From Apilactobacillus apinorum (GTDB lineage: Bacteria > Bacillota > Bacilli > Lactobacillales > Lactobacillaceae): a DNA stretch of 64,000 nucleotides. Shown piece by piece: positions 24,783 to 60,483 of this stretch (position 1 is the stretch's first letter; every line of letters starts with the position of its first letter). The translations under genes and the position numbers were made by a program. The stretch lies in contig NZ_KQ440395.1 in the NCBI RefSeq assembly GCF_001281175.1, forward strand, positions 563,312-627,311, given 5' to 3'. A model generated the notes under the pieces. That model saw nothing but the letters and a program-made list of their open reading frames with translations, had not been told where the DNA came from and made no database searches.

Positions 24783-25032
24783 AATAAAACATTGATCAGG
24801 AATTCGTTTATGGATGAATTTTAGAGAGCCTATGTAGCTGTGATATAGGCATTCAAATTAAACGTTCACGCCTGTGAGTTGTTATTCTGAACGTAATTAG
24901 GAATAAACCGGTGCAACCGTTATCTGCGAGTCTTATGACTCATTGAGCTATTTTGTGTGAACAAAGTAGGAAATTAGGTGGAACCACGTTTTCAAACGTC
25001 CTTTTGGCAATTGCCAAGAGGGCGTTTTTTTT
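24783..25032 (+). ncRNA. T-box leader of an amino-acid ABC importer (likely His specifier CAC)
   Basis: It fills the 310-base gap between minD and the importer. Visible: AGAGAG bulge (24823-24828), apical stem GCCTAT / ATAGGC, lower stem CAGG (24797-24800) with CCTG (24871-24874), and T-box AGGTGGAACCACG (24976-24988). A terminator with arms AAACGTCCTTTT and AAGAGGGCGTTT plus Ts ends near 25032. The triplet just before the lower-stem strand is CAC (24867-24869) followed by a purine, pointing to tRNA-His. A competing hairpin CGTTCA / TGAACG makes this reading tentative. Confidence 0.8.
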
Positions 25033-52285: not shown

Positions 52286-52326
52286 AAAAAAGAACCTGAT
52301 GAATTAATCATCAGGTTCTTTTTTTA
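52286..52326 (+). terminator. Bidirectional terminator between trxA and yslB
   Basis: AAAAAAAGAACCTGATGA / TCATCAGGTTCTTTTTTT: A run before and T run after a 12-bp stem, so it works for both convergent genes. Confidence 0.92.
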
Positions 52327-56526: not shown

Positions 56527-57261
56527 ATGTCAGGACATTCAAAATGGCATAACATTCAAGGACGTAAGGGTGCCCAAGATAAGAAACGTGGTAAGATTTT
56601 CCAAAAATTATCTCGTGATTTATACCAAGCTGCAAAAGCTGGTGGCCCAGAACCAGATGGTAACCCACAATTACGTCTTGTGATTGATAAAGCCCATGCT
56701 GCCAACATGCCTAAAGATAACATTCAACGTGCTATTGATAAGGCTTCTGGTCAAGGTGGAGCAAACTACGAAGAAATTACTTACGAAGGATATGGACCTG
56801 CTGGTACAGCAATCATGGTTTCTTGTTTAACTGATAACAAAAACCGTACTGCTGCTGCCGTTCGTTCAGCATTCAGTCACCATGGTGGTTCTCTAGGTTC
56901 AAACGGTTCAGTTTCATACATGTTTGATCGTAAAGGATACATCGTTATCTTACGTGACGGTTTAGACGTTGACGAAGATAGTATGCTAATGGATGTTTTA
57001 GATGCTGGTGGAGAAGATATGAGAGCTGATGAAGATCAATTTGAAATCTTTACTCAACCATCTGACTTAACTTCTGTAAGAGATGCACTTCAAGATAAAT
57101 ATGATTTAGATACTGCTGAAGTTACAATGTTCCCTCAAAACAAGACTGCTGTACCAAGTGATAAAGTATCACAATACACTGGCTTAATTGATGAACTTGA
57201 TGAAAACGATGACGTTCAAGACGTCTACGAAGCAGCTGAATTACCAGAATCTGCTGAATAA
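56527..57261 (+). CDS. YebC/PmpR family translation/transcription factor
   Basis: 244 residues starting [25 protein letters not shown], the family hallmark. Three-domain alpha/beta protein; members were described as DNA-binding regulators, and YebC-type proteins have since been linked to relief of ribosome stalling at proline runs. The ATG at 56527 is favoured over a GTG two codons earlier by the position of AGGAG. Immediately upstream of comG, from which it is separated by two hairpins. Confidence 0.93.
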
Positions 57262-57269
57262 TTATTAAA

Positions 57270-57297
57270 GATGCACATTTTATGTGCATTTTTTTTA
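57270..57297 (+). terminator. Terminator of yebC
   Basis: AATGCACAT... as GATGCACATTTTATGTGCATT hairpin with eight or more Ts; ends eleven bases before the next inverted repeat. Confidence 0.88.
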
Positions 57298-57308
57298 TAA
57301 AAAAATTT

Positions 57309-57347
57309 AAACCTCCATTCTACGAATATATGAATGGAGGTTTTTTT
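57309..57347 (+). promoter_or_regulatory. Terminator-like, RBS-masking hairpin before comGA
   Basis: Perfect 12-bp inverted repeat AAACCTCCATTC (57309-57320) / GAATGGAGGTTT (57332-57343), 11-base loop, T run to 57347, then the comGA ATG at 57348. The GGAGG in the 3' arm (57336-57340) is the comGA ribosome site, and CCTCC in the 5' arm pairs with it. It may act as a second terminator and as a translation block for read-through RNA. Confidence 0.8.
57321..57328 (+). promoter_or_regulatory. cin-box (competence sigma -10) of comG
   Basis: TACGAATA, identical to the ComX/SigX cin-box of streptococci and compatible with the SigH-type -10 of Lactobacillus sakei com genes. It is exactly the first eight loop bases of the hairpin, 19 bases before the comGA ATG. 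Expected start near 57335, leaving the RBS but not the 5' arm in the RNA. Confidence 0.65.
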
Positions 57348-58196
57348 ATGGACATACAATTATATTTTAAGAAGTTAATATCTACTTCATGTGATAAAAG
57401 AATTGAAGACATTTATATACTACCTGAGGATAATCAATATGTTTTAAAAGCCAAAAGCGGGTATGGAATTATATTCCAGGAATTTTTAAAAATAGATACG
57501 GCATTAAAGCTAATTAATTATTGTAAGTATGTTAGTGGGATGAGTATAAGTGAGAAAAGAAGACCTCAAGTTGGTTCTATTGGTGCTCACTCAGATTTCT
57601 TTTTAAGAATTTCCACAGTTGGAAACTTTAAGAATGAAGATACAATGGTAATTAGGATTATTTATGCACTTGATAATAATAAAATCATTTATAGTAATGA
57701 CGCCATTTTGAATCAAATTGTAGAAAATACTAATGATTCTGGATTGATAATTTTTGCTGGAAAAACGGGATCTGGAAAAACCACTTCTGTTTATAAGATT
57801 GCTGATAAAATAGCGAAAAACAAGATGATTATGAGTATTGAAGATCCAGTGGAGATTAGACATAAATCATTTCTGCAATTACAAGTTAATGAAGTCGCTG
57901 GGATGGGATATGATGAATTGATTAAAGTAGGGTTAAGACATCGACCGGACGTGTTTATAATTGGAGAGATTAGAGATTATAAAACTGCCAATGCAGCAAT
58001 TAGAGCTGCTTTATCAGGTCATTTAGTACTAACTACAATTCATGCCAGAAATTCTGATGGTGTTATAGATAGGTTAACTCAATTAGGATGTGAATATTCT
58101 GACGTTAAGAGCAGTTTGAACACGATTATATATCAGCGTATGTTGCTAAACGATGATGGGGATTTGATGGCTGATTTAGAAATCATTAATAATTAA
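57348..58196 (+). CDS. comGA: Competence pilus assembly ATPase ComGA
   Basis: Secretion ATPase (GspE/PilB type) powering the transformation pseudopilus, 282 residues. Walker A GKTGSGKTT at 138-146, Asp box/Walker B MSIEDPVEI near 163, FIIGEIRD, and the His motif LVLTTIHARN. The ATG at 57348 has GGAGG seven bases upstream; the frame runs back to 57282 but this part lies in the two hairpins and is not credible as coding. Shorter at the N-terminus than Bacillus ComGA (about 356), normal for lactobacilli. First gene of an intact comG operon. Confidence 0.95.
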   Translation: MDIQLYFKKLISTSCDKRIEDIYILPEDNQYVLKAKSGYGIIFQEFLKIDTALKLINYCKYVSGMSISEKRRPQVGSIGAHSDFFLRISTVGNFKNEDTMVIRIIYALDNNKIIYSNDAILNQIVENTNDSGLIIFAGKTGSGKTTSVYKIADKIAKNKMIMSIEDPVEIRHKSFLQLQVNEVAGMGYDELIKVGLRHRPDVFIIGEIRDYKTANAAIRAALSGHLVLTTIHARNSDGVIDRLTQLGCEYSDVKSSLNTIIYQRMLLNDDGDLMADLEIINN

Positions 58197-58221: not shown

Positions 58222-59193
58222 ATGAAAAAACTAACTTTAAAAAGGCAGTATGTATTTTTCAAACTAATGAGTGATTTATTGAATTCTGGATACAACCTAA
58301 AACAATCAATTCTATTTATTAGAGAAATGGATAATGACGTAAACGCATATAACTATATTGAGGACCAATTAATAACAGGAAGAAGCTTTAGTGATAGTGT
58401 ATATGGATTAGTTAATGATGAATTCGTCAATCAAATTATGATAAGTGAACGGTATGGTAACTTGGCACAATGTTTGTCTGATCTTAGTAATTTTATTCAA
58501 CATAGAATACAAAATGAATCGAAAATTAAGGAGGTTTTATGTTATCCAATCATTTTAATAATGATGTTGGCATTTACGGTTTTTGCAATCAATGAATTGG
58601 TCTTACCACAATTAAATACAGTAAGTACTATTAATCAATATGATTTCAGTATGATCTATTGCTTTATTGCATTAGTCGTTCTGGTATTGGCAGGGATTAC
58701 ATATTTTTACAATAGATTGTCGTTATTAGAAAAAAGAAATTATATATGTAGAATTCCATTTATAGGCAATGTTTATAGAAGTTATATTGCATACTTCCTA
58801 TCGTTGCAATTAAGTATGTTATTGAGCAGTGGAATGGAATTAATTCAAATTGTACATGTATTAAAAACGTTTAAAAGAAACACTTTACTAAATGCTTTAG
58901 GAAATGAACTATCACGATTTGCGAATCTTGGAGATGAGGTTACCAAGTTGATTAATAAATATCGTTTTTTACCAATCGAATATAATAGCTTTTTTAGTAG
59001 TGGAAAAGAAGTTGATGATATTAAAGATGAATTAAATATATTTTCAAAAATCAAGTTTACTGAAATGAATAAGCAAGTTAATCGTTTAATAAATATGATT
59101 CAACCAATACTATTTTTGATTATTGGTATATGTATTATTGTGGCTTATCTACTAGTATTGGCACCAATATATTCTTCACTGAAAGGAATTTAG
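58222..59193 (+). CDS. comGB: Competence pilus platform protein ComGB
   Basis: Inner-membrane platform protein (GspF/PilC family), 323 residues with three transmembrane segments (about 107-127, 145-165 and 292-318) and two T2SSF repeats (residues 10-130 and 185-310; LSSGMELIQIVHVLK). 25 bases after comGA. RBS is weak (GGGATGGG region). Needed for pseudopilus assembly with ComGA. No frameshift is seen. Confidence 0.92.
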   Translation: MKKLTLKRQYVFFKLMSDLLNSGYNLKQSILFIREMDNDVNAYNYIEDQLITGRSFSDSVYGLVNDEFVNQIMISERYGNLAQCLSDLSNFIQHRIQNESKIKEVLCYPIILIMMLAFTVFAINELVLPQLNTVSTINQYDFSMIYCFIALVVLVLAGITYFYNRLSLLEKRNYICRIPFIGNVYRSYIAYFLSLQLSMLLSSGMELIQIVHVLKTFKRNTLLNALGNELSRFANLGDEVTKLINKYRFLPIEYNSFFSSGKEVDDIKDELNIFSKIKFTEMNKQVNRLINMIQPILFLIIGICIIVAYLLVLAPIYSSLKGI

Positions 59194-59196
59194 AAA

Positions 59197-59499
59197 TTGA
59201 AAAATAAGAAAGACGGATTCACATTAATAGAAATGACGGTGGTATTATTTATCATTTCGTTGCTAATTTTAATCATTGTTCCAAATATTTCTGGGCAGAA
59301 GAAGCATGCCAATAAGATCCATATCCATGCAATGAGCACTATGATTCAAGGTCAAGTAGATGCTTTGTCTGACGAAACAAATAATAAAAATATTGACTTC
59401 ACAGATCTTATTAGTGAGGGTTACTTAACTGATAAGCAAGTGAAACAAGCTGAATCGGATGGAATTAAAATTGAAAATAATAAAGTTATTGAAGATTAA
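59197..59499 (+). CDS. comGC: Major competence pseudopilin ComGC
   Basis: Main pilin of the DNA-uptake pilus, 100 residues. Prepilin motif KKDGFTLIEMTVVLFIISLLILIIVP: cleavage after Gly7 and Glu5 of the mature protein are both present, followed by the hydrophobic N-terminal helix. TTG start at 59197 with GAAAGGA upstream. Needs a ComC-type prepilin peptidase, not in this window. Overlaps comGD by 11 bases if the latter starts at TTG 59489. Confidence 0.93.
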   Translation: MKNKKDGFTLIEMTVVLFIISLLILIIVPNISGQKKHANKIHIHAMSTMIQGQVDALSDETNNKNIDFTDLISEGYLTDKQVKQAESDGIKIENNKVIED

Positions 59500-59914
59500 T
59501 AGGATAGGTTTTTCTACTTTCGAAATGATTGTAGTGCTGTTAATGACTACGGTATTTTTCTCAACTACTTTATTTATGTTTAACACATTAAGATATAACC
59601 ATTCCCAAAACGACAAGATATTTTGGGATCTATTTAAATCAAATTGGGAAGCAACTGTAGAATCTTCAAAAGCTAATCATATTGATAGTGTTATTTACAT
59701 CTCACATAACCATGTAATTTTTGAAAATAAAGCTAAAAAAAGTGAAGTAACAGTTCCAAACAACATAGTCACACCTGATGAATTTGTTATTCAAATAAAA
59801 AGAAATGGGTATATTTCACCTAAGACATATTATTGGTTTATCAGGAATAAAAATAAGAAATATGTTCAAAAAATACAAATGGGATGGGGAGTTTATAGAC
59901 TGTATGAAAAATAG
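59489..59914 (+). CDS. comGD: Minor competence pseudopilin ComGD
   Basis: Minor pseudopilin, 141 residues from a TTG at 59489, which gives the short leader KINRIG before FSTFEMIVVLLMTTVFF. The mature Glu5 is present. An ATG at 59459 is also in frame and would give a 17-residue leader; neither has a clear RBS, and I prefer the TTG because it repeats the 11-base overlap seen at the two other comG junctions. Downstream half has no recognisable motif. Confidence 0.83.
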   Translation: MKINRIGFSTFEMIVVLLMTTVFFSTTLFMFNTLRYNHSQNDKIFWDLFKSNWEATVESSKANHIDSVIYISHNHVIFENKAKKSEVTVPNNIVTPDEFVIQIKRNGYISPKTYYWFIRNKNKKYVQKIQMGWGVYRLYEK

Positions 59915-60089
59915 AAAACATGGATTTTTGATGATAGATGCGATGATTGCATTATTAATAATTTCAACAAGTATTATTATCTTCTCCGATTTCAATAAAA
60001 CAATGAATAAGAACTTAGAAATAAGAAAAAAAACATTGATCAAAAAAAGGATGAACTATGAACAACAAAAGGGCCTTTACGATGATTGA
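59904..60089 (+). CDS. comGE: Minor competence pseudopilin ComGE
   Basis: 61 residues from the ATG at 59904, inside the end of comGD (11-base overlap, ATGAAAAATAG). Prepilin-like N-terminus NRKHGFLMIDAMIALLIISTSIIIF with Asp where the usual Glu5 stands. Short compared with Bacillus ComGE (about 115), but similar to lactobacillus versions by my recollection. The longer frame upstream (to 59805) lies in comGD and lacks a prepilin leader at its start. Confidence 0.82.
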   Translation: MKNRKHGFLMIDAMIALLIISTSIIIFSDFNKTMNKNLEIRKKTLIKKRMNYEQQKGLYDD

Positions 60090-60483
60090 GAGTGTAGTTA
60101 GTATATTTATATTATCTTTGATTGCGATATTGGTGATATTAATTCATCCGTTTATTGATAATGTACAAACAGATAGTAACGAAAATGTTATTGATTATCA
60201 GTTATTCTTAAAGGAAATAGAGTCAGATAAGTTTGGTTTTGTGTGGAAAGATGTCAGTAATAATGAAGTATCTCTTTACAGTCAAGTAAATAAAAAAGAA
60301 TACAAGTTAAAACAAAATAAACAATCATTGATTTTATCAGGTGAAAAAAATGGTTATTTACCTATGTTGGATAAAATAAAAACCGTATTTTTTTCAAAAA
60401 GTGGTCATCACTTTAAAATTAGTATTACATTTTTGAATGGTGAACAATATACGAATGTGAGTGTGTTAAAAAATGACAAGTAA
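60058..60483 (+). CDS. comGF: Minor competence pseudopilin ComGF
   Basis: 141 residues: NNKRAFTMIESVVSIFILSLIAILVIL, a prepilin-type start (Ala in place of Gly at -1) with Glu5 present, followed by a ComGF-like soluble domain. The ATG at 60058 overlaps comGE by 32 bases. Part of the minor pilin complex thought to prime the pilus. Confidence 0.85.
   Translation: MNNKRAFTMIESVVSIFILSLIAILVILIHPFIDNVQTDSNENVIDYQLFLKEIESDKFGFVWKDVSNNEVSLYSQVNKKEYKLKQNKQSLILSGEKNGYLPMLDKIKTVFFSKSGHHFKISITFLNGEQYTNVSVLKNDK

Follow-up and report, generated by a model that had tools for sequence, protein, structure and literature searches.

A predicted hairpin lock around a competence-type promoter box ahead of the comG operon in Apilactobacillus apinorum

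The comG operon of Apilactobacillus apinorum raises the question of how genes for a DNA-uptake pilus could be shielded from transcription that enters from a gene upstream. Insulation of this kind is a live question, because terminators are often read through in the competence response of Streptococcus mutans, according to the available text of that study (PMC5069739). In our window, the whole stretch of 64,000 nucleotides that was analysed, the features of the yebC-comG stretch lie on the + strand, and the possible source of read-through is yebC (TACO1/YebC family; 56527..57261; PF01709, E 2.7e-58; PF20772, E 2.8e-32; Pfam search on the translation from 56530, start ATG judged by eye), which lies upstream of the operon and is co-directional with it. 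This gene is followed by its own intrinsic terminator (57267..57297; hairpin and T run, -11.9 kcal/mol, z -5.45), the first barrier on the way to comGA. The operon begins with comGA (57348..58196; NCBIfam NF041000 ATPase_ComGA, 314 bits for a cut-off of 300), whose product is 86% identical to that of Apilactobacillus sp. MRS2-bin.2, the nearest named relative. It continues with comGB (58222..59193; NF041012, 227 bits, below the cut-off of 240; PF00482) and with comGC, a comGD-like gene, a small ORF and a comGF-like gene (59197..60483; NF040999 above its cut-off, NF040982 and NF041002 below theirs, PF15980 ComGF).

Directly ahead of comGA lies a perfect 12-bp inverted repeat, which the first-pass annotation had described and which direct reading, together with the fold, confirms. 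The 5' arm, AAACCTCCATTC (57309-57320), contains CCTCC, the complement of the comGA Shine-Dalgarno (SD) sequence; the loop is TACGAATATAT (57321-57331); and the 3' arm, GAATGGAGGTTT (57332-57343), holds the SD itself, GGAGG (57336-57340), whose pairing state was taken from the partition function. A tract of seven T (57341-57347) leads from the SD to the ATG (57348-57350). The stem has no mismatch, and 5 of its 12 pairs are G/C. The RNA of 57290-57380 folds with -19.8 kcal/mol (z -3.75), a value matched by 1 of 200 shuffles, and stems without a mismatch that have 12 bp or more, include 4 or more G/C pairs and enclose a loop of 8-14 are found at just two places in the window, namely this hairpin and 52287-52323. 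When the 59 window genes called by a simple script were ranked by how strongly the SD region pairs with sequence ahead of it, comGA came first with -18.7 kcal/mol and the runner-up had -8.7. A stem that contains G/C pairs and is followed at once by T7 also has the form of an intrinsic terminator, and this hairpin would probably act as one. A simple terminator scan, with a loop limit of 8, did not pick it up, and the yebC terminator at 57267-57297 is likewise absent from the list of that scan. Rfam gave no match over the gathering score at the hairpin; its sole matches in the window are two T-box leaders (RF00230; 16326-16538, 130.2 bits; 24783-25006, 104.8 bits). The comGA frame is open through the hairpin (57282-57347); the loop holds an ATG in that frame at 57330, and on paper a longer ComGA could be made from read-through RNA.

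The loop opens with TACGAATA (57321-57328), an octamer that we take to be the ComX box and read as a predicted SigH/ComX-type -10 box, with the T-rich 5' flank of cin-box-like elements at late com genes. By the usual spacing of such boxes, the competence transcript should start about 6 nt past it (57333..57335). The octamer occurs once in the window, vs 2.35 times expected from dinucleotide shuffles, and at 47 places on both strands of the 1.46-Mb genome. Arithmetic from the genome count puts the chance of finding it within 60 bases at about 0.1%, the same order as the 0.2 percent estimated before; as TACGAATA is not rare in the genome, the case for it rests on its place and on the relatives rather than on rarity. 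A hairpin elsewhere, between secG-like and rnr-like ORFs (G000:C1:496148; L121:1501-1528), holds TACGAATA too and ends in TTTTTTT, and is most likely an ordinary terminator with a chance match. The genome has a SigH-like gene (L434:1420-2034) between ORFs judged by eye to be YacP-like and NusG-like, and the best NCBIfam matches of this gene (NF006147, E 1.6e-18; TIGR02859, E 8e-17) are both under their cut-offs. A second small sigma-70-like protein, of 178 aa, is encoded at L433:1447-1983 (TIGR02937, E 3e-17). The proposed use of the box is in line with the streptococcal SigX/ComX late genes and the SigH regulon of L. sakei, in which, according to the available text, an alternative competence sigma factor drives comG, although no such hairpin is described in that text (PMC5069739, PMC3364868). 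A TACGAATA-like box is a further common feature. In L. sakei, the accessible part of the report gives a 280-fold increase of comGA RNA on sigH overexpression (PMC3364868).

Whether the ribosome site is open would depend on where the RNA begins. By partition function, the predicted probability that the SD is unpaired is 0.00 in RNA from 57200, 57262, 57290 or 57305 and about 0.65 in RNA from 57334, as expected from the first-pass proposal that read-through RNA hides the site and RNA from the box frees it; in short RNA the value is 0.48 by the measure of our family survey and about 0.65 with longer RNA. Polymerase that comes from yebC and passes the yebC terminator would make an RNA that folds the hairpin, and this RNA would probably end at the T tract or else yield mRNA with a hidden ribosome site. 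Competence RNA polymerase would begin at the box, within the 3' half of the hairpin, leave out the 5' arm and give an mRNA with a leader of about 14 nt and a mostly free ribosome site. With such a lock, no regulator protein would be needed to keep non-competent cells from making the DNA-uptake pilus. The 40-base element combines a predicted SigH/ComX-type -10 box in the loop, the comGA SD in the 3' arm and a T tract behind it, and we consider it reasonably probable that it serves the comG operon as a self-bypassing lock. The observed part of this predicted noise lock consists of sequence, predicted pairing, conservation and co-variation; recognition by the sigma factor, the start site, termination and the effect on translation are what we infer. 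The same element had been proposed before as promoter, insulator and translational lock in one, and the yebC terminator at 57267-57297 had then been missed. Because yebC ends in its own terminator, the insulator role is corrected here to that of a second barrier, and the comGA hairpin would serve as a second safety layer behind the first.

To compare relatives, comGA starts were collected from a scan of named genomes (66 loci), 16 genus genomes, 397 family genomes, two other genera (37 and 41 genomes) and further families of the order; 390 family genomes had a match, and 30 loci and 100 stretches, which are part of the listed places, were fetched. The 311 sequences included 53 duplicates and 31 without a located box and SD, and the 227 distinct ones kept divide into 35 with a box score below 3 and 192 with a score of at least 3, 178 of the latter from Lactobacillaceae. 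L309, whose start was wrongly indexed at a contig edge, was left out of the survey counts, and L336 was left out of the folds. Boxes were searched about 20-60 nt before starts with CG required, and comparison by a genus-held-out matrix served as control. The consensus set, 184 distinct out of 256 located comGA boxes, gave TTTT-n-CGTATTTA before comGA, the box being also given as TTTTnCGTATTTA-like. Conservation of a promoter-like box at this position is borne out, while exact conservation of TACGAATA across the family is ruled out, as the box is mostly CGTATTTA and that of Apilactobacillus comGA is CGAATATA. It lies 26-40 nt ahead of the start codon in 169 of the 178 Lactobacillaceae comGA, a range that is partly imposed because the search range was set in advance. 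With the genus-held-out matrix, a score of at least 3 was reached at 93/118 comGA, 10/96 yebC and 1/87 comGB starts and a score of at least 6 at 62/118, 0/96 and 0/87, respectively, in a comparison that favours comGA because its starts were picked partly by box score.

The hairpin is distributed less evenly than the box. We called a start locked when its SD pairs 5' of the box at a probability of at least 0.7. By this definition 67 of 178 boxed Lactobacillaceae comGA are locked, vs 25.4 expected from shuffles of the upstream sequence, which preserve base composition only and not dinucleotides, as do those of an earlier energy test (22 genera; p.005 for shuffles, p.025 for swaps). The excess over shuffles does not reach significance at the genus level (p.074, 24 genera). 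In RNA from after the box, the predicted free fraction of the SD is 0.5 or more in 55 of the 67 locked cases and below 0.5 in the other 12; partial pairing of the short RNA is still predicted in the kunkeei group (L002-L005, L007), where the SD is free at 0.08-0.38. Locked cases occur under 13 genus labels, led by g37 (20), Apilactobacillus (9), Limosilactobacillus (9) and Lentilactobacillus (8). Boxed starts without a locked case were found in Fructilactobacillus (0/10), g33 (0/7), g4 (0/4), g32 (0/2) and g23 (0/2), and none is locked in six further groups with one boxed sequence each. A family-wide lock rule is ruled out by these genera and by the genus-level value, and the hairpin is a patchy trait in Lactobacillaceae: many relatives have a weak one or none. 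The 115 rows with full protein were placed on a ComGA tree (FastTree only), where the strong hairpin form, present in 24 rows, requires at least 13 state changes. In genus g10, one genome (G118:C1) has equal-scoring comGA copies at 997859 and 1016121, about 18 kb apart.

Beyond Lactobacillaceae, comGA was searched in 89 genomes of further families in the order, and 40 starts were judged by eye. Locked cases among boxed starts numbered 3/7 in f3, 1/1 in f8, 0/1 in f4, 0/3 in f9 and 0/2 in f5, and f2, f6 and f7 had no comGA box at score 3. Of the 8 f4 starts, probably from Streptococcus as guessed from the family code, 7 have a CGAAT box, and no enclosing stem is visible by eye.

Among the alternatives, the one that survives best takes the hairpin as only a back-up terminator for yebC, in which promoter and SD share letters because the gap is short and concealment of the SD serves no separate function. 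The T tract immediately after the hairpin speaks for this reading, and TTTT in the spacer between SD and ATG is indeed commoner in locked than in unlocked comGA (24/67 vs 5/62), a link that is strong in raw counts and lost on independent pairs (median p 0.125). But 43 of the 67 locked starts have no TTTT, for example in Furfurilactobacillus and Lentilactobacillus, and the place of a terminator is already taken: in 42/42 locked loci (24/26 unlocked) a terminator-like hairpin stands after the yebC stop and ahead of the box. The gap speaks against it as well, since the median intergenic length is practically equal, 115.5 for locked (n=44) and 116 for unlocked loci (n=27). As for the source of read-through, yebC is co-directional upstream of comGA in 98 of 118 loci. 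We regard a mere back-up terminator as unlikely.

Another reading is that the hairpin governs all comG mRNA regardless of its start and is opened by a small RNA, temperature or a protein, in the manner of the S. aureus sigH repeat. In the available text on that gene, a perfect inverted repeat likely hides the ribosome site in the SigH competence pathway, but it lies at the sigma gene and not at a target operon, and that text describes no promoter in its loop (PMC3486894). At comGA the conserved box sits in the loop, so that RNA begun there cannot fold the hairpin, and the lack of an Rfam match there also argues against control of this kind, which we hold to be quite improbable.

The pairing might also be without function, if composition alone makes a T/C-rich sequence ahead of the box pair with an A/G-rich SD behind it. 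The T-rich sequence does belong to the box consensus, and the shuffles, with their 25.4 locked starts in 178 and the genus-level p of.074, show how far composition alone can go. If composition were all, however, the upstream arm should do equally well when paired with an SD arm taken from a congeneric species, and matched arms were compared with arms exchanged within the genus in the ten genera with at least 5 rows. Matched arms paired better in Apilactobacillus (p.0024), Limosilactobacillus (p.0034), g37 (p.0002) and Furfurilactobacillus (p.033), values that are uncorrected and optimistic, as species of a genus share descent and one event may count repeatedly; a Bonferroni correction for ten tests would leave Apilactobacillus, Limosilactobacillus and g37. 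The swap was not significant in Fructilactobacillus (p.073), Lentilactobacillus (p.084), Levilactobacillus (p.069), Pediococcus (p.34) and Paucilactobacillus (p.34), and in g33 matched arms were worse (p.92). When each genus was represented by one species, the median p was.005.

In Apilactobacillus the change can be followed pair by pair. Between the window and the A. kunkeei group there are two double compensatory pairs, T-A to C-G and C-G to T-A; some species have G-U at two positions, and in L001, the nearest relative, one stem pair is broken. Stem pairs were counted anchored at the stem base because MAFFT misplaced the stem columns. Co-variation of the arms, which the first-pass annotation had named as a check, is thus found in four of ten genera and in these two double changes, where the structure is kept by compensation, and is not significant in the other six genera.

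Control starts bear on the same point. In a tight, fixed geometry (geometry 2), the mean pairing energy was -10.3 at comGA, -4.4 at yebC and -7.2 at comGB, and values of -12 or lower were found at 34/111, 0/91 and 8/83 starts, respectively (p 6e-6 for comGA against comGB), which is weaker evidence than it looks because this geometry was picked after the result of geometry 1 had been seen. The looser geometry 1, which missed the tight Apilactobacillus layout, gave a clear difference from yebC and no difference between comGA and comGB (p.14). Taken with the perfect 12-bp stem and its 5 G/C pairs in the window, the within-genus co-variation with its compensatory pairs and the weaker controls in geometry 2 leave pairing by chance very little room. 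Operators often take the form of a perfect inverted repeat around a promoter, and a repressor or activator could in principle bind the palindrome as its DNA operator over the -10 box, but the arm letters vary among relatives while pairing is kept, and the arm complemented is the one that holds the SD with the T tract coming next, so that we consider this reading the least probable of all.

The preferred reading, a lock that RNA from the box bypasses, does not extend to all late com genes. In Apilactobacillus, comEA has no comparable hairpin in 16/16 loci (-5.5 to -11.5 kcal/mol), and comC has none in the 9 of 15 loci in which box and start could be placed (-3.0 to -8.0 kcal/mol); a lock as a rule for all late com genes is ruled out by these two, and coiA, with most start calls wrong or absent, does not bear on it. 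Upstream of comEA in Apilactobacillus (L171-L186), the T tract of the preceding gene's terminator ends at a CGTA box, and by this adjacency terminator and promoter share letters, differently from comGA. Box letters also differ within one genome, with CGAATATA at comGA, CGTACATA at comEA (L181) and CGTATTTA at comC (L161). Some comGB ribosome sites (L311, L308, L318, L319, L061) look strongly occluded too, which would fit translational coupling to comGA.

The closest parallels come from outside the competence genes. For phage T4 gene e and I-TevI, the available text describes a late promoter sited so that the late mRNA lacks the 5' arm of a hairpin that hides the SD, names inhibitory structures at soc, 49 and others alongside them, gives TATAAATA as the octamer of the late sigma factor gp55, and states that the long RNA of gene e yields 100-fold less lysozyme (PMC3014915, PMC2988022). 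The predicted behaviour of comGA is alike: the SD is paired in modelled RNA from upstream, and RNA from an alternative-sigma box would lack the 5' part, the conserved box lying in the loop and the start within the structure being placed from it. On the other hand, comG is a chromosomal late competence operon and not a phage gene; its hairpin has a T tract and thereby a terminator shape too, and an ordinary terminator lies ahead of it. For sigG (spoIIIG) of B. subtilis, a large hairpin is proposed in the accessible text to block translation of read-through RNA from spoIIG, and RNA started at sigG's own alternative-sigma promoter is likewise unable to fold it, but gene, sigma factor and sequence are others, and a second small hairpin at the sigG ribosome-binding site acts on the gene's own RNA (PMC5942855). 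A literature search over titles and the openings of abstracts, with few subscription papers, returned no such arrangement at com genes. The logic is therefore known from phage T4 and B. subtilis sigG, and its placement at competence genes appears to be new, with support at the level of sequence in some lineages.

Taken together, the earlier interpretation of this locus is supported in part: the conserved box, the predicted opening of the SD and the co-variation speak for it, and the conservation of TACGAATA itself did not hold, and the element is corrected to a second barrier. More broadly, and only tentatively, we suggest a protein-free noise filter for natural competence. A single hairpin, acting as terminator and translation lock at once, would carry an alternative-sigma promoter in its loop, only RNA started by the competence sigma factor would give the pilus, and the device would have been gained or lost repeatedly in Lactobacillaceae, with co-variation of the arms maintaining it. 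Other genes whose expression depends on a sigma-specific start may then be sought by looking for alternative-sigma boxes within hairpins that hide an SD. If the lock is true, comG, which needs silence outside competence, would be shielded from pervasive read-through without a repressor, by the logic of the phage T4 late genes.
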